Shown in pieces: positions 52,646 through 64,000 of a DNA stretch of 64,000 nucleotides (its first letter is position 1; each line of letters begins with the position of its first letter). This stretch comes from Verrucomicrobiales bacterium. Lineage in GTDB: Bacteria > Verrucomicrobiota > Verrucomicrobiia > Limisphaerales > UBA9464. Made by a program: the position numbers and the translations under genes. The stretch lies in the NCBI GenBank assembly GCA_027488845.1, contig JAIYBC010000057.1, positions 186,001 through 250,000 on the forward strand. The letters run 5' to 3'. The notes under the pieces are model-generated. The model was not told the DNA's origin. It worked only from the letters and a program-made list of their open reading frames with translations, and made no database searches.

Positions 52646-52966
52646 TCTCCAATTGGTTGCGTGGCTTGTGCTGGGCAGGGCACCTCCTCGAAGCCTGCGA
52701 AGCCCCGGTTCCCATGTGACTTTTGTTCCGGGAATGTCACAGTTTCCAAACTCACCCTCTGGAAATGCACGGAACCTGCTGCTCTTTGCGACCCCCAATG
52801 TCGGATGCCTCCCGTCAGAGCCCCAAAGGGAGCCGTTTTGCCCAAAACTGGGCAACCGGCGCCCATGTGGTGGGTATCCGGGAGTTTGTCGGGCTGTCGG
52901 GGCTGCGTGTGGATCGCGCGTGTTCTGGCCTCCGTCGCGGCCATCTCTTCCAAGACTGATTTCTCC
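52646..52966. other. Intergenic region upstream of the giant surface protein
   Basis: About 320 bases without a supported gene. It holds three inverted repeats: GTGAC...GTCAC (52716-52740), TTTCCA...TGGAAA (52743-52765) and the compact TTGCCCA AAAC TGGGCAA (52838-52855). Any could be an operator or leader structure; no convincing TAGNYT promoter is present. Confidence 0.5.
52838..52855. promoter_or_regulatory. Inverted repeat TTGCCCAAAACTGGGCAA
   Basis: Seven-base perfect arms with a 4-base spacer lie 112 bases before the giant gene. The form suits a repressor operator or short hairpin; its role is not known. Confidence 0.4.
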
Positions 52967-55900
52967 ATGACCTCAACCTCGTTCCGGCTCCGTTGGCAAC
53001 GGATGCTGTTGTCCCTGCTTCTCGTCGTGGCTCCCGTGCGTGCGGGCAGCCTCCTGCGGGAGGTGTTCACCGAGTTGGGCGGCGTCGGGATCGCCGACCT
53101 GACCAACAGCCCGGCCTTCCCGGCATCGCCGACCTTCACCGAGACCCTGACGTCGCTGTTCGAGGCGCCGACGGATGTCCTGGAGAACTACGGCCAGCGG
53201 CTGCGCGGCACCTTCACCGCGCCGGTGACCGGCAACTACAAGTTCTGGATCGCGAGCGACGATGCCGGGTCGTTGTACCTCAGCACCGATGCGAATCCGG
53301 CCAACCGCCGCCTGATCGCCTTCGTCTCGGAATGGACCGGCTCCCGGGAGTGGGCGAAATTCGCTTCGCAGGAGAGCGAGGCCATCGCACTGGTGGCGGG
53401 CCGGAGGTACTACATCGAGGCCCTGATGAAGGAGGGCGGCGGCGGCGACAACCTGGCCGTCCGTTGGCTGCGGCCGGATGGCCGTGACGAGGGGCCGATC
53501 CCCTTGGACAACTTCCTCGCCTGGGGATTGAACCCGGAGCCTCCGCGCATCTCCCAGCAGCCGGTTCCCGTCACCGTCCAGGAAGGGCGCCCAGCGACCT
53601 TCTCCGTGAACTACGACAACGCCGGTGTCGTGGATGTCTTCTGGCTGCGCAACGGGTCCCCGATCGCCAACGCGACCGGCACCGTGCTGACGCTTCCGGT
53701 GGTCACGCTGACCGACGACGGAGCGCTTTTCCGGGCATTCCTGACCAATTCGCTCGGGGGAACCAACTCCACGGAGGTCCGCCTCACGGTCACCCGGGAC
53801 ACGGTGCGTCCGGTCCTCGTCTCCGCCATCGCCGCCTCGGATTCCGAGGTCCAGCTGCAGTTCGACGAACCGGTCCGCCCTCCTTCGGGCAACGCCTCGG
53901 ACTCCTTCTCCATCACGCCGTCGGTCCCCGTGCTCGGGGTGTCCCAGGATCCCGTCGATCCGCGGCGGCTGTTCCTCACCACCGGGCCGCGCACCGTGGG
54001 CCTGACCTACACGGTCTCCGTTTCCAACGTCCCGGACCGCGCCCAGACCCCGAACCTGGTCGCCGCGGGATCCACGGCTCAGTTCGCCGCGCAGGCGGCG
54101 TCGCCGTTCCTGGTCGAGGCCGAGGACTTCAACTTCGGCAGCGGTCAGACCCTGCCGGTGGCGAGCGTGATGCCCTACACGGGCGGAGCCTACTCCGGCC
54201 GGTTGGCCGTCCAGGGGGTCGACTACGAACGCCCGGCCGATTCCTCCAGTCCGGTCTACCGCAACGACACCCGGATCCCGATCAACGACAACCCCGACCT
54301 GAGCCGTGCCGACGGGGCTTGGTCGATGTCGGTGAACTTCAAGCTCGGATGGATCGGCGACGGCCAGTGGTACAACTACACCCGCACCGTCCCTCCCGGT
54401 CGCTATCAGGTCTTCGCCGCCATGAGCCACGGCGACACCGCCGTGGGCGCCATCCGCGGCTCCCTGCAACGGGTGACCGGAACCGCCACCACCGCGACCC
54501 AGACGCTGGAGAACCTGGGATCGTTCGTGGCGGCCGGCACCGGTGGCTGGGGAGCCAACGCCCTGGTGCCCCTGCGCGACGCGTCCGGTGCGATCCGGAC
54601 CCTCGGCCTCGGCGGCGTGACGACCTTCCGGATGAACCCCTCGAGCGGTGACTACGACTACCTGCTCTTCATGCCGGCGGCTCCTCCGCGCATCGTGGTC
54701 GCTCCCCAGCCCCGGACCGTCCTCGAAGGCCGCGACGCGGTCTTCACCGTCAACACCGGCGATGCCGCCGTCTCGGGTATCCAGTGGACCAGCAATGCCG
54801 TCCCGATCCTCGGGGCCACCAACGCGACCCTGGTGATGCGCTCGGTCCCGGTCTCCGCCAACGGCGCCCTGGTCCGGGTGGCCATCGCCAACGAGGTCGG
54901 AACCAGCCTCAGCACCCCGGTGACCCTGACGGTGGTTCCCGACACGCAACCGCCGGTCGTCCTCCGCGCCTTCAACACCGGCCTGACCAACCTCCTCGTG
55001 GAGTTCAGCGAACCGGTCTTCCTGCCCTCCGGTCCGGTCGGCGCCAGCTTCTCGATCGACGGCGGCGCCGCGCTCCTCGCCGTCGAACCGGGCACCCTTT
55101 CCACCCAGGTCCGGTTCACCGTCAGCGGCCTCACCTTCGGCCGCACCCACACGCTCACGCTGAACGAGGTGCGGGACCGTTCCGCCGCCGGCAACCGGGT
55201 CGCCGCCAACAGCCGTGCGTCGTTCATCGTCTCGGACCTCTCCCCCTTCAACCTCGGCGGCGATCCGGCCACCTCGGCCTCGGTGATCCAGGTCTCGGCG
55301 AACGGCTACGATGTCTCCGCGCGCGGTGGCGTGGTCGGGGCCGGCGCCGACTCCGGCGGTTTCGCGGCCCAACCGAGGACCGGCGACTTCGACCTCCGGG
55401 TCCGAGTCGAAGGTCAGCGCCTCACCGACCCGTACCAGACCGCCGGTCTCGTGGCCCGGGTCGGCTATGCCTCCAACGCCGTCTTCGCGGGCGCCTTCGC
55501 CTCCTCGGCCGAGGCGGGCAGCTTCTTCGTCTCGCGCGGCACCGCCGCCGGCGTCGCCGCCTACCAGGCGCCGCGTGGCGGCTACCCGGTCAACTATCCC
55601 CAGACCTGGCTCCGCCTCCGGCGCGTCGGGAACGTCCTGACCGGCTTCGGCTCCCGCGACGGCATCCGCTGGACCCAGCTGGGAACGACCACGTCGGTCC
55701 TCCCGTCGGAACTGGCCGTCGGCCTGGTGGTCGCCGGTCGGAGCGAGGCCGAGATCGCCTCCGCGCGCTTCCGCGACTTCGGGACCTCCACCGGGGCCGT
55801 CGCCGAGTCCTACGTTCCGACCCGAGAGGGCCTCGGCTATTCCAGCCGCAAGACCAAGATCGTCTTCAGCGAGATCTTCTATCATCCGCCCGACTCCTGG

Positions 55901-58900
55901 GGCACGAACGGCGTCGAGTTCGTCGAGGTCCACAACGCCGGCGACGTTCCCGAGGACCTCTCGGGCTGGAGCCTCCACGGCGCCGTCTCCTACACCTTCC
56001 CGGCCGGATTCCGCCTCGGCGCCGGCGCCTTCGCGGTGGTGGCCGCCGACCCGGCCGCCCTGCGTGCACGGCACGGCCTCGACACCGTCCTCGGTCCCTT
56101 CGACGGAAACCTCTCGAACCAGGGCGAGGCCCTGGAACTCCGGGATGAGATGGGAGCCCGGAAGCTCTTCGTGGAGTACGACACCGCCGGCGCCTGGCCG
56201 GTGTCGGCCGACGGGGCCGGCCACTCGCTGGTCCTCGTGAACCCCAGCTACGGCGAGAACGATCCGCGCGCCTGGGCCGCCAGCGCGTGGGTCGGCGGCA
56301 ATCCGGGCGAGATGGATCCCGTGGTCGCCGTCGTCGGCGACGGCGTCGTCATCAACGAACTGCTCGCCCACACCGACCTGCCCCAGGTGGACTACGTGGA
56401 GCTCCACAATGCCCAGTCCCAGGCGGTGGACCTCTCCGGCGTGGTGGTGACCGACGACGCCTCCACCAACCGCTTCCGGTTCCCCGCCGGGACCACCATC
56501 CCGGGCTACGGCTTCCTCGCGCTCACGGAGAGCCAGCTCGGATTCCGTCTCAACTCCGCGGGCGAGACCGTCTTGCTGGTCAGCTCGAACGGGCTTCGCG
56601 TCCTGGATGCGGTGCGCTTCGGGGCCCAGGAAAACGGCGTGGCCTTCGGACGTTCCCCGGACGGTTCGCCCCGCTTCAGCCGCCTCGCCGCCACCACTCC
56701 CGGCGCCGCCAACGCCCCGCGTCGCGTCGAGGACGTCGTGATCAACGAGATCTTCTACAACCCGATCTCGCAGGACGACGCGGACGAGTTCATCGAGCTG
56801 CACAACCGCTCCGGCGCCCCCGTGGACCTCGGAGGCTGGCGGATCTCCGACGGCGTGGACTTCCGGTTCCCGTCGGGCGCCACGATCCCCGCGGGCGGCT
56901 ACGTGGTCGTGGCCTCGGACCGTGCCCGGTTGCTGGCCAACCACCCGACGCTGTCGCCGGCCGCCGTCCTTGGCGACTGGTCGGGCAGCCTTTCCAACGG
57001 CGGCGAACGCATCGCCCTCACCAAGTCCGACGTCGTGCTCTCCACCAACGAACTGGGCGAGGTCACCTCGGACACCATCCACATCGCCGTCTCCGAGGTG
57101 TCCTACCTCGACGGCGGCCGCTGGGGCAAATGGGCCGACGGCGGCGGGTCGTCGCTCGAGTTGGTCGATCCCCGGGCCGACACGCGTCTGGCCTCCAGCT
57201 GGGCGGATTCCGACGAGACCGCGAAGGCGCCGTGGCAGGAGTTCACCGTGACCCGCCCCCTGGCGTCCGGCGTCGTGACACCCGACCGCATCCACCTCGG
57301 AATGCTCGGGGCGGGCGAGTGCCTCGTGGACGACCTCGCCGTGAATGGTCCGACCGGAACCGCTCTGCTCGGCAACGGCGGGTTCGAGGCCGGGATCCTC
57401 CCGAACGCGACCGGGTGGACCTACCTCGGCCACCACAGCCGTTCGCGTGTCGAAGCCGGCGCGGGATTTGGCGGTGGACGGGCCCTCCGCGTGATCGCCC
57501 CGGGCGACCTCGACACCGGACGCAACTGCATCCGCGGAACCCTCGCCGCCGGCTTGGACAACGGCATCACCGGGACCATCCGGGCCCGGGTCCGTTGGCA
57601 GGCGGGGTGGCCGGAGCTGCTCGTCCGGACCCGCGGCGGCGGACTCGAGCTCGCGGTGCGCATGAACGTGCCGAAGAACCTCGGAACACCCGGCGCCGCC
57701 AATTCCCGCCGCATCGCCAACTCCGGTCCCGCGATCTGGAACGTCAGCCACCGTCCCGCGGTCCCGGACGCCAACCAGCCCGTGGTCGTCTCCGCCCGGG
57801 TCGAGGATCCCGACGGCGTCAGCTCGGTCGCCCTCCAGTTCAGGGCAGGGGAGACCGGTGCGTTCAGTTCCGTGGCGATGCGGGACGACGGCCTCGGCGG
57901 CGACCTGGTCCGCGGCGACGGCCTGTGGTCCGGCACGCTGACCGGACGTCCTGCCGGCACCCTCGTGCAGTTCCGCGTCGCGGCCTTCGACGCCGCAGGG
58001 GTCGCGGTCTCCTCCAGCTTCCCGTCGGGGTCGGTCTTCGCCGGATCCCCGGCCGTGACCGAGGCGAACCTGCGCTGGGGCGATCCGGTGCCCTTCGGGA
58101 CGTTCACCCACATCCATTCCTGGACCACCCCCACGGTCGACAACGCGCTCAACGCCAACGGACTCGACAACACCTACCGCGACACGACGCTGGTCCATGG
58201 CAACCTCCGCGTGATCTACAACGCCGGCATCCGCCGCAAGGGCAGTCCCTACACCGGCCAGGCGGACTTCGCGGTGACGGTCGCCGACGACGACCTCCTG
58301 CTCGGCGCCGCGAACCGCGTCTACGGGCTCACCGGCAACGGCGGCGAGGAGGCGACCCGCATGCGGACGCAGATCGCCAACTGGTTCGCGCGCCGGATGG
58401 GGCTTCCCTACCTCGAGAGCCACTACATCCGGTTCTTCCGCAACGGCGGCGCCCACGGCTCGGTCGGCGAGGACCTCGAACAGCCTTCCAACAACTACGC
58501 CGAAGGCTGGTTCCCGGACGGCGAGGCCGGCGATCTCCACAAGGTCGCCTTCTGGTTCGAGGTGCGGGACGACGGCGGCTTCGACGCCATCGGCGCCGAC
58601 CTCGGCGACTACCGGAATGCCGACGGTTCCTTCAACGTCTCCCGCTACCGCTGGAACTGGCAGCCGCGCCCGAACGGCACCACCGCAAGCGACTTCACCA
58701 ACTTCTTCGCCCTGATCTCGGCGGCGAACCTCCGGACGACCAACTACATCCCCTCGATCCTCAACATCGTCGACATGGACCAGTGGATGCGGATGTTCGC
58801 GTACGACGGGGCCATGGGGAACTGGGACACCTGGGGCACGGGCAACAACCAGAACAAGTACATCTACTATCAGCCCGGCGGGAAATGGAACATCCTCCCT

Positions 58901-61900
58901 TGGGACATGGACTGGGCGCTCGGCGTCGGCGACGGGCCAAGCCGTCGCCTGTTCGACGGCAACGACGGCAACGTGAACTTCATGTTCTCGATCCCGGAGT
59001 TCCGGCGCATGGCGTGGCGCGGCTACCAGACCGCCGTGGACGGGCCGTTCCAGCCCTCCCAATACCAGCCGCAGTTCAACGCACGGTCCGCCGCGTTGGC
59101 GTTCAACCAGGTGGGCGGAGTCACCCCGCCGACCTCCATCGCCGCCTACCTCAACGCCCGTCGCGACTTCGTCGCCGGCCAGATCCGCACCTCGGATCCC
59201 GCGACCTTCTCGATCTCCAGCAACGGCGGCGCCGACTTCACCTCGTCGACCGCCATGGCCCTGATCGAGGGTTCCGCCCCCTTCGCCGCCGCCGGCATCG
59301 AGGTCAACGGCGTCCGCATGCCGGTCGAATGGATCGACGCCGGGCGTTTCCGGATGCGTGTCCCCCTGACCGGCGCCACCAACCGCCTCGAACTCGCCGC
59401 CGTCGACCGCCTTGGCAACGCCATCGCGGGCATGTCCGACACGGTCACGGTCCGCTACTCGGGCGCCTTCGAGCGGGTCCAGGACTTCGTGGTGATCCAT
59501 GAGATCCACTACAACCCGGTCGAGGCCGGCGGTTCGTTCATCGAGCTGCACAACCGCTCCACCACCACCGCCTTCGACCTCTCCGGCGCCGAGTTGGGCG
59601 GGGTCGGCTACACCTTCCCGGACGGCGCCGTGATGCCGCCCGGCGCGTTCTGGGTCCTCGCCCGCGACCGCGCCGCGTTCTCCCAGATCCACGGCGCCGG
59701 CGTCCTGCTCTACGACGAGTTCCCCGGTTCGCTCGACAACGGCGGCGAACGCATCGCCCTGACCCTCGGAAGCGGCACCAACCAGGTCCTCATCTCCGAT
59801 GTCCGCTACGACGACTCGGCGCCTTGGCCCACGATCGCCGACGGCCAGGGTTCCTCCCTGCAGTTGGTCGATCCGTCCCGGGGATCCTGGCGGGTGGCCA
59901 ACTGGGTCTCCGCGCCGACCAACTCCGCGGACCGGGTCACGCCGGGCCGCGCCAATGCCGGACGCCAGTCCCTCGCCGCGTTCCCCGGCCTCTGGATCAA
60001 CGAGGTGCTTCCCGACAACCCCTCCGGTCCCCGCGACAACGCCGGCGACCGCGATCCGTTCGTCGAGATCATCAACGCCGGCGCCAACACCGTCGACCTC
60101 TCCAGCCTGTTCCTCACCGACTCGACCACGAATCTCACCCGTTGGTCCTTCCCGTCGGGCACACTCCTCGCACCGGGCGCGCTGCTCACGGTCTGGGCGG
60201 ACGGCGAGGCGGCCGAGTCCACCACGACGATCCCGCACACGCCCTTCCGCCTGAATCCGACCAACGGCCTCGTGGCCCTCGCGCGCCGCCAGGGAACCGG
60301 TTCCGTGCCGGCCGTGCTCGACTACGTCACCTGGGAAGCCATGCCGTCCGGCCGCGCCGTCGGCTCCATCCCGGACGGCCAGCCGCGCACCCGGCGCATC
60401 CTCTACACGCCGACCCCGGGCGCGACCAACGATCCCGTCTTCCCGGACTTCCGCGTGACCATCAACGAGTTCATGGCCCAGAACACGTCGACGATCACCG
60501 ATCCGGCCGACGGCGACTTCGACGACTGGATCGAGCTGCACAACGCCGGGACCAACACCGTGGACCTCACCGGCTTCTTCCTCACCGACCGGCTCACCAA
60601 CGCGACCACCGCGATGTTCCGGATCCCCCCCGGCTATCCCATCGCGCCGGGAGGCTTCCTCCTCGTCTGGGCGGACGGCGAGACCGGCCAGAACTCGCCG
60701 ACCAACTCCGGTCTCCACGCGAACTTCGCCCTCGCCCGCACCGGGGAACAGGTCGGCCTCTTCGACCCGAGCGGCGGGCTCGTGGATTCGGTCACCTTCG
60801 GCGTCCAGACCAACGATGTCTCGGTGGGCCGGTTCCCCGACGGCGCCCCGCCTCAGTTCTATCCGATGTCGACCCCGACTCCGGGCGCTCCGAACGTTCT
60901 GAGCGGCGCAAACCGCCCTCCCCAGTTCGCCGTCGTCCCCAACCGGACGGTCACCGAGCAGGTCGCACTGGAGTTCCCGGTGACGGCCACGGACCCGGAT
61001 GCCGGCCAGACGTTGACCTATTTCCTCGGTGACGACGCGCCGCCCGGATCGTCCATCGACCCCGTCTCGGGAACGTTCCGATGGTCCCCCTCGGAAACCG
61101 ACGGTCCCGGCACCTTCAGCTTCCTCGTGCGCGCCACGGACAGCGGTTCCCCGGCGAGGACCGCCGCCGTCCGCGTGAACCTCGCGGTCTCCGAGGTCAA
61201 CCGTCCCCCGTCGGTGCCGGCCTCGACCAACGTCGTGGTCGCCGAAGGAACAACGCTGACCCTCGCCCTCGAGGCGTCCGATCCGGATCTCCCCGCCAAC
61301 ACGCTCGTCTTCGAACCGATCGGTGCCGTGCCGCCGGGCCTCATCCTCAGCCCAGCGGGTGTCCTGACCTGGACCCCCGGCGAAGAGGAAGGCGGCGGCC
61401 TTCGCATCGTGGGCTTCAAGGTGACCGACTCCGGCGTCCCGGCACTCTCCGCCACCGGCGAGGTGCGCATCGCCGTGGCCGAGGTGAACAACCCGCCGGT
61501 CCTCGCCCCCATCCTGCCCCAGACCGTGGACGAAGGCGCTTCGATCGACCTCCTGCTCTCGGCCGCGGACCCGGAAGGCCAACCCTTCCGCTTTCAGGTC
61601 GACGGCGCCGCGCCGTCCGGGTTCGTCCTCGATTCCGCGACCGGTCGCATCACATGGACGCCCTCCGAGGCCCAGGGTCCCGGCAGCTTCGTCGTCCTGA
61701 TCCGAGCCGTGGAGACGGCGGCGGGCGGACTCTCCTCCGTGCGCGAGATGAACGTCGTCGTCCGCGAGGTCAACCAGGCGCCGGTGCTCGGCGCCCTGGA
61801 GGACCTGATCGCCGGGGAAGGGGAGACGGTCTCCTTCGCCGCCGTCGCCACGGACGCCGACCTGCCGTCGCAGCAGGTCCGCTACGACCTCGAACCCGGT

Positions 61901-64000
61901 GCCCCCGCGGGCGCCCTGCTGGATCCGGTGACCGGCGTGTTCCGCTGGACCGTTCCGGAGGACTTCGGCGCCTCCACCAACCGGATCACCGTCCGCGCCT
62001 CCGACGACGGCCCCGGCAATCTCTCCGCCACCCGGACCTTCCAGGTGGTCGTGGTTCCCAGCTTCCGCGTCGTCCTCAACGAGGTGCTCCGGCGTCTTCC
62101 GACGGCCGGTGCCGCCTTCGTCGAGGTGCTGAACGCCTCGGCGCGGACGGACTGGAACATCTCGGGCTACCGGCTCGTCGGTTCCAACCTGAACTTCACC
62201 TTCCCCGCCGGCAGCCTCCTCCGGCCGGGTGGCCTGCTCGTCGTGGCCGCCGATGTCGCGGCCTTCCGCAGCGTCCACGGCGCCGCCGCCTCCGTGGCAG
62301 GCGCGTGGACCGGTTCGCTCGGTCCCGAGGCCGATTCGCTGCGCCTGCTCACCACCGGCGGCCAGGTGGTGTCCCGCCTCGACTACGACGGCCTGACGCC
62401 ATGGCCCGCCGCCGCGGCGACGCCGGCTTCGCTGCAGCTCGTCGACGCCCGTCAGGACATCAACCGCGCCGGCAACTGGGATGTCGCCGCGGGCATCGTC
62501 GGCGACCGCGCGCTGGTCGGCTTCACCAACGTCTGGCGCTACTTCCAGAACGGCGCGCCCGGCACCGGCTGGAACCAGGCGTCCTTCAACGACACCGCGT
62601 GGCTTCAGGGAGGTGGACTGTTCTTCGTCGAGAGCGCCGCCTTGCCCACCAACAAGACCACCGCCCTCGTCCTCGGCCAGACGACCTACTACTTCCGCAC
62701 CAGGATCCAGGTGCCGGCCTTGCCGTCCGGGGTCTCGGTGGTCGTGAACGCCATCCTCGACGACGGCTACGTCCTCTGGGTGAACGGCCAGCGCGCCCAC
62801 TCCCTCGGCATGGAGGACGCGGTTCCCACCCATGAGACCTTCGCCAACCGCGTCGTCGGCGACGGCGCCATCGAGGGGCCGTTCACCATCCCGGCCAACC
62901 TCCTCGTGCCCGGCGAGAACACCATCGCGGTCGAGGTTCACCAGGCCAACGTCGGCAGCTCCGACATCGTGTTCGGACTCGAGATGGTCCTCCAGGGCGG
63001 CAACCTGTCGCCGTCCACGCCGGGCCTCGCCAACAACGTCACCCGCGCGCTCCCCGCGTTCCCGGCCGTCCGCATCAACGAGGTCGCCCCGCGCAACACC
63101 TCGGGCCTGCGCGACGCCTCCGGCACCGCCGAGCCCTGGATTGAACTGGTGAACACCGGTGCCGAGGACGTCCCGCTCGACGGCCTCTCCCTGGTCCTTC
63201 CCGGCACCACGCCCGCCTCCTGGGACTTCCCGGCCGGGCGCACGCTGCCGGCGCGCGGCTTCCTCGTGGTCTTCGCCGACGGACAACCGGCCCAGACGTC
63301 CGCCACCGAACTCCACGCCGGATTCCGTCTGCCGTCCACCGCCGGCCAGGCCCTGAACCTGGTGTTGCAGCGGACGCTCTCCGGCGCCCCCAACGCCGTG
63401 GACTACCTCCACGCGACGGTGCCGTCGGTTGACAACCGGACCGTGGGCCATGTGCCCGACGGCGAGCCGGCCTCGGTGGTTCCGCTGGATCCGACGCCGG
63501 GCGCCTCCAACTCGGGCGTTCCCGCCAACCGCCCGCCGGAGTTCGCAACCCCGGCCGACGCGGTGGCCACGGTGCTCCAGCTGTTCGAACGCCCGTTGAC
63601 CGCCACGGACCCGGACGCCGGCCAGACGCTCGTCTTCAGTCTCGTCTCCGGACCGTCGGGCCTTTCGGTCTCGCCCGGAGGCCTTGTCTCCTGGACCCCG
63701 CCGGCCGGCACCGTCGGGTCGACGAACCGCGTCGTGGTGCGCGTGACCGACTCGGGCACGCCGCCGTTGTCCGTCACCAACGAATTCCGGGTAGTCGTCC
63801 GTGGCGGCGACGCCCCGCCGGTCCAGATCGGGCTCCCGACCTTCGGCACCGACGGGAACGTCCGGCTGCGCTTCGCCACCGAGGCCGGACGCCGCTACCG
63901 GATCGAGTCGGGCTCCGTGCTGGGCGAATGGCCGTCGGCGCAGGAAGTCGTCGCCACCGGCACCACGATCCTGGTCCTGGACCCGCCGCCCGCGACCGGC
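52967..64000 (+). CDS. Giant secreted multidomain protein: PA14, Ig-like, lamin-tail and CotH-kinase-like domains (3' truncated by window)
   Basis: At least 3,678 residues, open to the window edge. Signal peptide (LLSLLLVVAPVRA), PA14 domain (about 45-185), Ig-like (193-277), SwmB-like (279-375), CBM6-like VEAEDFNF domain (379-575), second Ig/SwmB pair (575-755), LamG/DUF1349-like (762-945). Three lamin-tail domains start near 964, 1127 and 1255. A CotH-kinase-like domain follows (about 1715-2075; GIRRKGSPYTG, WGTGNNQNKYIYYQ, WNILPWDMDWALG). More lamin tails start near 2173, 2342 and 2495 (for example VTINEFMAQN...DDWIELHNAG). Four cadherin/He_PIG-like repeats (2645-3030), lamin tail (3032), galactose-binding-like (3175-3345), lamin tail (3367), He_PIG-like (3522-3610). 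Frame was checked at seven points and stays in phase. CotH proteins phosphorylate other secreted proteins in spores; here a surface or extracellular role is inferred. Confidence 0.9.
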   Translation, partial: MTSTSFRLRWQRMLLSLLLVVAPVRAGSLLREVFTELGGVGIADLTNSPAFPASPTFTETLTSLFEAPTDVLENYGQRLRGTFTAPVTGNYKFWIASDDAGSLYLSTDANPANRRLIAFVSEWTGSREWAKFASQESEAIALVAGRRYYIEALMKEGGGGDNLAVRWLRPDGRDEGPIPLDNFLAWGLNPEPPRISQQPVPVTVQEGRPATFSVNYDNAGVVDVFWLRNGSPIANATGTVLTLPVVTLTDDGALFRAFLTNSLGGTNSTEVRLTVTRDTVRPVLVSAIAASDSEVQLQFDEPVRPPSGNASDSFSITPSVPVLGVSQDPVDPRRLFLTTGPRTVGLTYTVSVSNVPDRAQTPNLVAAGSTAQFAAQAASPFLVEAEDFNFGSGQTLPVASVMPYTGGAYSGRLAVQGVDYERPADSSSPVYRNDTRIPINDNPDLSRADGAWSMSVNFKLGWIGDGQWYNYTRTVPPGRYQVFAAMSHGDTAVGAIRGSLQRVTGTATTATQTLENLGSFVAAGTGGWGANALVPLRDASGAIRTLGLGGVTTFRMNPSSGDYDYLLFMPAAPPRIVVAPQPRTVLEGRDAVFTVNTGDAAVSGIQWTSNAVPILGATNATLVMRSVPVSANGALVRVAIANEVGTSLSTPVTLTVVPDTQPPVVLRAFNTGLTNLLVEFSEPVFLPSGPVGASFSIDGGAALLAVEPGTLSTQVRFTVSGLTFGRTHTLTLNEVRDRSAAGNRVAANSRASFIVSDLSPFNLGGDPATSASVIQVSANGYDVSARGGVVGAGADSGGFAAQPRTGDFDLRVRVEGQRLTDPYQTAGLVARVGYASNAVFAGAFASSAEAGSFFVSRGTAAGVAAYQAPRGGYPVNYPQTWLRLRRVGNVLTGFGSRDGIRWTQLGTTTSVLPSELAVGLVVAGRSEAEIASARFRDFGTSTGAVAESYVPTREGLGYSSRKTKIVFSEIFYHPPDSWGTNGVEFVEVHNAGDVPEDLSGWSLHGAVSYTFPAGFRLGAGAFAVVAADPAALRARHGLDTVLGPFDGNLSNQGEALELRDEMGARKLFVEYDTAGAWPVSADGAGHSLVLVNPSYGENDPRAWAASAWVGGNPGEMDPVVAVVGDGVVINELLAHTDLPQVDYVELHNAQSQAVDLSGVVVTDDASTNRFRFPAGTTIPGYGFLALTESQLGFRLNSAGETVLLVSSNGLRVLDAVRFGAQENGVAFGRSPDGSPRFSRLAATTPGAANAPRRVEDVVINEIFYNPISQDDADEFIELHNRSGAPVDLGGWRISDGVDFRFPSGATIPAGGYVVVASDRARLLANHPTLSPAAVLGDWSGSLSNGGERIALTKSDVVLSTNELGEVTSDTIHIAVSEVSYLDGGRWGKWADGGGSSLELVDPRADTRLASSWADSDETAKAPWQEFTVTRPLASGVVTPDRIHLGMLGAGECLVDDLAVNGPTGTALLGNGGFEAGILPNATGWTYLGHHSRSRVEAGAGFGGGRALRVIAPGDLDTGRNCIRGTLAAGLDNGITGTIRARVRWQAGWPELLVRTRGGGLELAVRMNVPKNLGTPGAANSRRIANSGPAIWNVSHRPAVPDANQPVVVSARVEDPDGVSSVALQFRAGETGAFSSVAMRDDGLGGDLVRGDGLWSGTLTGRPAGTLVQFRVAAFDAAGVAVSSSFPSGSVFAGSPAVTEANLRWGDPVPFGTFTHIHSWTTPTVDNALNANGLDNTYRDTTLVHGNLRVIYNAGIRRKGSPYTGQADFAVTVADDDLLLGAANRVYGLTGNGGEEATRMRTQIANWFARRMGLPYLESHYIRFFRNGGAHGSVGEDLEQPSNNYAEGWFPDGEAGDLHKVAFWFEVRDDGGFDAIGADLGDYRNADGSFNVSRYRWNWQPRPNGTTASDFTNFFALISAANLRTTNYIPSILNIVDMDQWMRMFAYDGAMGNWDTWGTGNNQNKYIYYQPGGKWNILPWDMDWALGVGDGPSRRLFDGNDGNVNFMFSIPEFRRMAWRGYQTAVDGPFQPSQYQPQFNARSAALAFNQVGGVTPPTSIAAYLNARRDFVAGQIRTSDPATFSISSNGGADFTSSTAMALIEGSAPFAAAGIEVNGVRMPVEWIDAGRFRMRVPLTGATNRLELAAVDRLGNAIAGMSDTVTVRYSGAFERVQDFVVIHEIHYNPVEAGGSFIELHNRSTTTAFDLSGAELGGVGYTFPDGAVMPPGAFWVLARDRAAFSQIHGAGVLLYDEFPGSLDNGGERIALTLGSGTNQVLISDVRYDDSAPWPTIADGQGSSLQLVDPSRGSWRVANWVSAPTNSADRVTPGRANAGRQSLAAFPGLWINEVLPDNPSGPRDNAGDRDPFVEIINAGANTVDLSSLFLTDSTTNLTRWSFPSGTLLAPGALLTVWADGEAAESTTTIPHTPFRLNPTNGLVALARRQGTGSVPAVLDYVTWEAMPSGRAVGSIPDGQPRTRRILYTPTPGATNDPVFPDFRVTINEFMAQNTSTITDPADGDFDDWIELHNAGTNTVDLTGFFLTDRLTNATTAMFRIPPGYPIAPGGFLLVWADGETGQNSPTNSGLHANFALARTGEQVGLFDPSGGLVDSVTFGVQTNDVSVGRFPDGAPPQFYPMSTPTPGAPNVLSGANRPPQFAVVPNRTVTEQVALEFPVTATDPDAGQTLTYFLGDDAPPGSSIDPVSGTFRWSPSETDGPGTFSFLVRATDSGSPARTAAVRVNLAVSEVNRPPSVPASTNVVVAEGTTLTLALEASDPDLPANTLVFEPIGAVPPGLILSPAGVLTWTPGEEEGGGLRIVGFKVTDSGVPALSATGEVRIAVAEVNNPPVLAPILPQTVDEGASIDLLLSAADPEGQPFRFQVDGAAPSGFVLDSATGRITWTPSEAQGPGSFVVLIRAVETAAGGLSSVREMNVVVREVNQAPVLGALEDLIAGEGETVSFAAVATDADLPSQQVRYDLEPGAPAGALLDPVTGVFRWTVPEDFGASTNRITVRASDDGPGNLSATRTFQVVVVPSFRVVLNEVLRRLPTAGAAFVEVLNASARTDWNISGYRLVGSNLNFTFPAGSLLRPGGLLVVAADVAAFRSVHGAAASVAGAWTGSLGPEADSLRLLTTGGQVVSRLDYDGLTPWPAAAATPASLQLVDARQDINRAGNWDVAAGIVGDRALVGFTNVWRYFQNGAPGTGWNQASFNDTAWLQGGGLFFVESAALPTNKTTALVLGQTTYYFRTRIQVPALPSGVSVVVNAILDDGYVLWVNGQRAHSLGMEDAVPTHETFANRVVGDGAIEGPFTIPANLLVPGENTIAVEVHQANVGSSDIVFGLEMVLQGGNLSPSTPGLANNVTRALPAFPAVRINEVAPRNTSGLRDASGTAEPWIELVNTGAEDVPLDGLSLVLPGTTPASWDFPAGRTLPARGFLVVFADGQPAQTSATELHAGFRLPSTAGQALNLVLQRTLSGAPNAVDYLHATVPSVDNRTVGHVPDGEPASVVPLDPTPGASNSGVPANRPPEFATPADAVATVLQLFERPLTATDPDAGQTLVFSLVSGPSGLSVSPGGLVSWTPPAGTVGSTNRVVVRVTDSGTPPLSVTNEFRVVVRGGDAPPVQIGLPTFGTDGNVRLRFATEAGRRYRIESGSVLGEWPSAQEVVATGTTILVLDPPPATG

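Follow-up and report, generated by a model that had tools for sequence, protein, structure and literature searches.

The right-hand end of the window (the whole stretch of DNA analysed, 64,000 nucleotides in length; G000:C11:186001-250000, where G000 is the source genome) is occupied by one giant gene. From the letters alone, its product had been predicted to join lamin-tail domains (LTDs) and other adhesive modules to a CotH-kinase-like domain, and perhaps to be a self-phosphorylating matrix protein. This raises the question of whether the chain carries a genuine CotH kinase domain, and what such a domain would do among adhesive modules.

Reading frame and module layout

The gene starts with the ATG at position 52967 on the + strand, and its frame is open to the window end (52967..64000). 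The contig sequence past this point puts the stop at window coordinate 64033; the end of the gene is therefore just outside the window, as the original prediction had it. The product is 3,688 aa in length (388 kDa, pI 4.8), in line with the more than 3,600 residues foreseen. An alternative in-frame GTG is found upstream at 52661, and a signal-like hydrophobic N-terminus, judged by eye, follows directly after the ATG (52967..53044).

GC contents at codon positions 1, 2 and 3 are 67, 53 and 91%. Because of this bias, and because relatives align along the chain, the gene is regarded as coding and not a chance product. A terminator-like hairpin of 12 pairs plus a T tail is situated ~20 nt 3′ of the stop; one such hairpin was found downstream of the gene versus a mean of 0.3 in shuffled sequences. 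A chance open frame or frame artefact is rejected, as the codon-position bias, the hairpin and the long relatives all agree.

An antisense frame of 3,675 aa is also open along the whole gene (52973-64000, - strand). The sense strand has no TTA, no CTA and only one TCA codon. In 16 relatives, one of which is a paralogue in the source genome, these codons number 2 to 83 per gene, and the antisense frame is broken in all 16 (the first 600 bases of each frame were skipped). An antisense gene is rejected on these grounds, and the open frame can be looked at as a by-product of codon use.

Genes for RNase PH and a histidine-phosphatase-family protein are found upstream on the - strand; these are the two of five candidate frames that received a Pfam name. 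When neighbouring frames were compared with 16 relatives, matches were to L043 or L059 only and none was to several relatives, among the matches listed, and operon partners were rejected for this reason. A phage-integrase-family (tyrosine recombinase) gene is present just 3′ of the giant gene on the - strand, outside the window (L011:12590-13630).

Pfam searches of the chain at E up to 1 give eight LTD, five He_PIG, two Ig_3, one PA14 and one CotH stretch. All features of the chain given below are on the + strand. The signal-like segment is followed by a PA14 domain (PF07691; 53042..53527), Ig-like and Big_5-like modules (53540..54094; Ig_3/I-set, with Big_5 under its cut-off and boundaries set by eye), an unnamed insert that is possibly carbohydrate-binding-like (54101..54676), and a second Ig-like/Big_5-like pair with a weak DUF1349-like module (54683..55789; Pfam, with DUF1349 under its cut-off). 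Lamin-tail domains 1-3 (PF00932; 55853..57223, boundaries by eye) come next, then an Ig-like module (57713..58048) and the CotH kinase domain (58046..59197). Lamin-tail domains 4-6 (PF00932; 59483..60895) and four putative-Ig (He_PIG, cadherin-like) repeats (60911..62062) lie beyond it, with boundaries again set by eye. The chain continues with a probable lamin-tail domain 7 (62063..62485), lamin-tail domain 8 (PF00932; 63059..63511), a fifth putative-Ig repeat (He_PIG; 63527..63805, boundaries by eye), and an unnamed C-terminal Ig/FN3-like module recognized by its profile and predicted fold (63809..64000, continuing to 64030).

The PF00932 total is 363 bits against a cut-off of 34.3. With regard to the ‘eight or more’ lamin-tail domains first proposed, eight stretches are present at E up to 1, of which the genome search retains seven at E<=0.001; the eighth stretch, assigned by eye to the weakest domain, number 7, passes only the laxer threshold. 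The proposed list of modules was right in substance as to lamin-tail, CotH, PA14, Ig and cadherin-like modules, but the carbohydrate-binding-like part (residues ~379-570) has no Pfam name at E up to 1.

The CotH domain and its active site

The CotH domain (PF08757) scores 43.4 bits in Pfam, where the cut-off is 23.8, and 48.6 bits in the genome search. For residues 1601-2120, a structure was predicted on the basis of 49 aligned sequences (48 from public contigs plus that of the window), with a mean pLDDT of 89.2 and a pTM of 0.85. Foldseek ranks B. cereus CotH highest, both in the form with Mg/AMP and in that without (E ~1e-16). In VIA-align, 5jd9 has a Z of 27.8 with 338 residues aligned and an rmsd of 3.3 A, 5jda has a Z of 27.6, and the next entry is at Z 11.1. 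The first 105 residues of the model, which form the Ig-like module that precedes CotH, resemble the module at the C-terminus of P. gingivalis PPAD (Z 10.4, 87 aligned), and the NCBIfam choice-of-anchor X model falls just under its cut-off shortly upstream of CotH (24.6 versus 25 bits).

At the sequence level the resemblance is distant. Identity to 5jd9 is 15% in the Foldseek alignment, the subfamily profile finds 5jd9 in the C-lobe only (E 1.6e-4), and the whole protein, searched as a single sequence against the PDB, finds no CotH chain at E up to 0.1. When its profile is compared with that of nine CotH domains from the source genome, the probability is 99.5% over 278 columns. The CotH domain of the giant chain is real, and the CotH protein-kinase-like fold is kept in the predicted model.

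B. subtilis CotH is reported to be catalytically inactive when carrying D228Q or D251A (PMC7821199). In B. cereus CotH, the Asp residues of the NFD and PWD motifs are 23 apart, the same as 228 and 251, and alignments suggest that they are the residues numbered D228 and D251 in B. subtilis. The window's domain has the motifs GNWD and PWDMD. By alignment and spacing, D1954 of the first (codon 58826..58828) is equivalent to the catalytic D228, and D1980 of the second (codons of D1980-M1981-D1982 at 58904..58912) is equivalent to D251; N1963 is in between. D1954 and D1980 are 26 apart, three residues more than in the bacterial CotH kinases.

Conservation was assessed in two alignments. The first, A1, has 18 of 22 CotH domains (L046, L047, L049 and L052 were left out), the 22 being the author's pick among the stronger CotH matches listed across genomes, and its counts are therefore valid for closer relatives, i.e. 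those of 36% identity and up. D1954 and D1980 are Asp in all 18 rows, and N1963, W1979, D1982 and K1859 are each invariant as well. The second, A2, drew on public contigs: a collection scan with the WD.D pattern gave 139 relatives, the best 80 loci were kept, and 48 of these plus the window make up its 49 rows (L130 was dropped for stops and 31 were unused). The active-site residues are kept in 49/49 rows, as is K1859. It should be pointed out that the loci of A2 were picked by the WD.D pattern, and the conservation of D1980 and D1982 there says little as a result. The original prediction would have fallen with a loss of essential residues on alignment with active CotH; the catalytic and metal aspartates are present.

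The N-lobe departs from that of ordinary CotH. The Lys-Lys pair, seen as KKSYHV in 5jd9, has no Lys at either position in 18/18 rows of A1, and the first position is Arg in two of them; these positions, before the second N-lobe strand, were mapped by extending the alignment. The Lys that is invariant in the subfamily, K1859 (codon 58541..58543), is found by a two-step mapping where 5jd9 has Tyr. This Tyr and the Trp of PWD presumably hold the adenine in 5jda. Relative to the CotH of B. subtilis and B. cereus (PF08757; 5jd9, 5jda), the giant chain is alike in the fold over 338 residues and in the catalytic-Asp, Asn and WD.D positions, but differs in its low identity, in the N-lobe pair and in having the domain embedded in a 3,688-residue chain.

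The domain might be a pseudokinase, in which the CotH fold has been retained for binding or for structure and the protein is a purely adhesive scaffold. The N-lobe departures are consistent with this, and there are precedents for such roles: fungal CotH proteins are reported to be ligands of host receptors and to have effects on spores and the cell wall (PMC9973265), and according to a review the CotH proteins of cellulosomes may have a structural or a regulatory role (PMC12484212). However, a dead domain need not keep the positions that match D228 and D251, nor N1963, and all are invariant in 18/18 rows. Loss of activity is therefore rated as unlikely, and kinase activity of the giant protein, as judged from the conserved positions and the model, is plausible.

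The source genome has CotH domains at 20 places, and three of the nine that were aligned depart from WD.D (L003, L004 and L009, regions L066, L067 and L072). HD.N is found twice and HG.D once, suggesting that these are altered or degenerate members.

Relatives and the role of the chain

Of 59 genomes searched, 51, the source genome among them, contain a match to the CotH segment at E<=0.001, and 29 of these are at E<=1e-100; no match was found in the other eight. To avoid circularity in asking whether orthologues lack CotH, lamin-tail domains 4-6 (residues 2159-2638) were used as the query in 39 genomes, and matches were found in 35. A CotH match adjoins on the same contig at 23 of 25 places (E up to 1.7e-100). 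One of the 23, G013:C31, has only the end of the CotH C-lobe, as the contig starts there. The remaining two (G012:C294 and G020:C114) begin no more than 250 bases from where their contig ends and are therefore uninformative on CotH loss. Orthologues without the CotH part would have counted against the original prediction, and no such counter-example was found. The central idea, a possible kinase and adhesive modules in one probably secreted chain, is supported by the kept fold, the kept aspartates and the orthologues that retain CotH.

Frames of 17 relatives are 2,877-3,655 aa in length, stop to stop. When the chain is divided into 37 blocks of 100 residues and compared with ten more distant relatives, identity is 40-60% in 28 blocks and below 40% in six, and the three that cover 301-600 are unaligned. 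Residues 301-600 align in one of the 17 relatives only, probably L044, judged by its length. PA14 is present at the N-termini of most relatives; L060 has no PA14 start. Among the best 80 of 139 relatives, 77 are named as verrucomicrobial and three simply as ‘bacterium’, and the nearest is a Verrucomicrobiales bacterium from a pond metagenome (D1_MAG_00042; 96% identity over 409 residues). Several relatives are titled Akkermansia muciniphila, and these titles are taken to be loose labels. On the alignments, the long architecture is conserved in other genera.

The combination of CotH and lamin-tail domains is itself already known. There are 19 frames with CotH in the source genome and 14 frames with 40 LTD places (E<=0.001), and ten of the 19 CotH frames also carry LTD, as matched by contig, strand and frame length. 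In addition, a published list of cellulosomal proteins includes C. thermocellum Cthe_0239, with LTD, LTD, Fn3, CotH given as its domains (PMC6083626). The two together show that the combination is not new, and the giant protein is a large, well-preserved LTD/CotH protein and no new system. Cthe_0239 resembles it in having both domains in one chain, but differs in its listed size (117 versus 388 kDa), in having two LTDs versus eight, and in its listing with cellulosome proteins. Giant or large LTD proteins have also been reported from a related phylum, the Planctomycetes, e.g. Fuerstia Fuma_00096, which has Ig-like domains, and a ‘planctosome’ anchor; a CotH domain is not mentioned in the portions of these sources consulted (PMC5177795, PMC6461901). 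Literature searches on CotH and Verrucomicrobia gave none on topic, among the matches listed.

PA14 domains are able to bind glycans. This, and the cellulosomal company of Cthe_0239, would fit a cellulosome-like surface complex for polymer capture or degradation, with CotH and LTD as accessory modules. The Pfam list of the giant chain at E up to 1, however, contains no CAZyme catalytic, dockerin or cohesin family, which makes such a complex improbable; a glucodextranase B-domain entry in the list is far under its cut-off.

The reading that we favour, at slightly better than even chances, is that of an exported giant verrucomicrobial scaffold with an active CotH-type kinase domain mid-chain. 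The analysis shows the gene, its modules, the CotH fold, the conservation among closer relatives of the aspartates that match D228 and D251, and that of the long architecture in other genera; export, surface location, catalysis and substrate are inferred. The chain would leave the cytoplasm by means of its N-terminal signal and would probably be a cell-surface or extracellular-matrix scaffold in relatives of Limisphaera and Pedosphaera within the Verrucomicrobiota. Binding and spacing would be the task of the PA14, Ig-like, lamin-tail and putative-Ig modules. The CotH domain, with its fold and C-lobe active site kept, would most likely phosphorylate proteins of the envelope or outside the cell, either in trans or in cis. 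The N-lobe departures, the low identity to 5jd9 and the eight genomes without a match are counted against an active kinase, as is the need for a supply of ATP outside the cell.

Phosphorylation in cis is what was first proposed, i.e. that the kinase modifies adhesive modules of its own chain or of its copies. The enzyme and the modules do share one chain, and B. subtilis CotH is reported to autophosphorylate (PMC7821199). Its substrates CotB and CotG are described there as having Ser/Lys/Arg-rich repeats, however, and no Ser/Lys/Arg-rich tract is found in the giant chain, where Lys makes up 0.5% and no stretch of 30 residues contains more than 9 S+K+R. There are also 18 other, shorter CotH frames in the source genome, nine of them with no lamin-tail match, and substrates in trans are therefore at least as likely as those in cis. 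A self-phosphorylating matrix is thus considered a poor prospect.

The C-terminal module

Extension of the gene, proposed originally as a means of finding a C-terminal sorting signal, reveals no known one in Pfam or NCBIfam. No PEP-CTERM or exosortase-type family is found in the giant chain (NCBIfam, E up to 1), and scans of the chain and of the C-terminal module show no T9SS C-terminal domain family (Pfam, NCBIfam). A SprA search gave no match in the source genome or in any control genome, and is therefore uninformative. The source genome does have three exosortase-like genes (G000:C36:63558, C11:147374 and C13:3283), and may therefore also use PEP-CTERM-type sorting.

What the last ~75 residues form instead is a six-stranded module, with the chain ending in ...FYRVIVLP. 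The module was predicted with a pLDDT of 87 for relative L094, from 43 sequences. Foldseek finds no match to the model at E<=0.001, and in structural comparison the best Z is 7.8, among many Ig/FN3 rows; for these two reasons it is called just Ig/FN3-like. The same comparison has a row for PorU, whose Z of 6.8 does not stand out from the common range and is given no weight. At E up to 1, any given Pfam or NCBIfam model matches one of the 43 members at most.

The module (profile A3) is repeated at 64 or more places in the source genome at E<=0.01, a lower bound since 150 of 255 candidates were scored, and it is present in 23 of 24 genomes searched, its own included, at E<=1e-6. At 28 of 30 places checked (L161-L190), which include the giant gene and its paralogue, it ends 10 residues or fewer from the stop; at the other two the distances are 13 and 124. 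Twenty carriers were fetched and 16 of their frames recovered correctly, and in 13 of the 16 a Met near the frame start is followed by a hydrophobic stretch, by a crude score that had no control. Seven of ten carrier frames scanned have a Pfam name, e.g. subtilase, cyclophilin-type isomerase or phosphoesterase. The module can be read as one that exported proteins commonly carry at their C-termini, with sorting, anchoring or capping as candidate roles. Literature on PEP-CTERM, exosortase and Verrucomicrobia does not describe it in the titles and abstract beginnings of the matches listed.

The C-terminal module may be the more promising lead. One could go further and propose that the giant chains are active matrix-building kinases sent to the surface by this module, as part of an undescribed sorting or anchoring system common to dozens of probably exported proteins per genome; this would be a long shot. 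If the module is a sorting signal, it would help to explain how the order displays part of its surface proteome. Should the CotH domain be active, protein phosphorylation would take place outside a bacterium that is no known spore-former, and would be situated in a scaffold that mostly uncultured Verrucomicrobiota have conserved from genus to genus.
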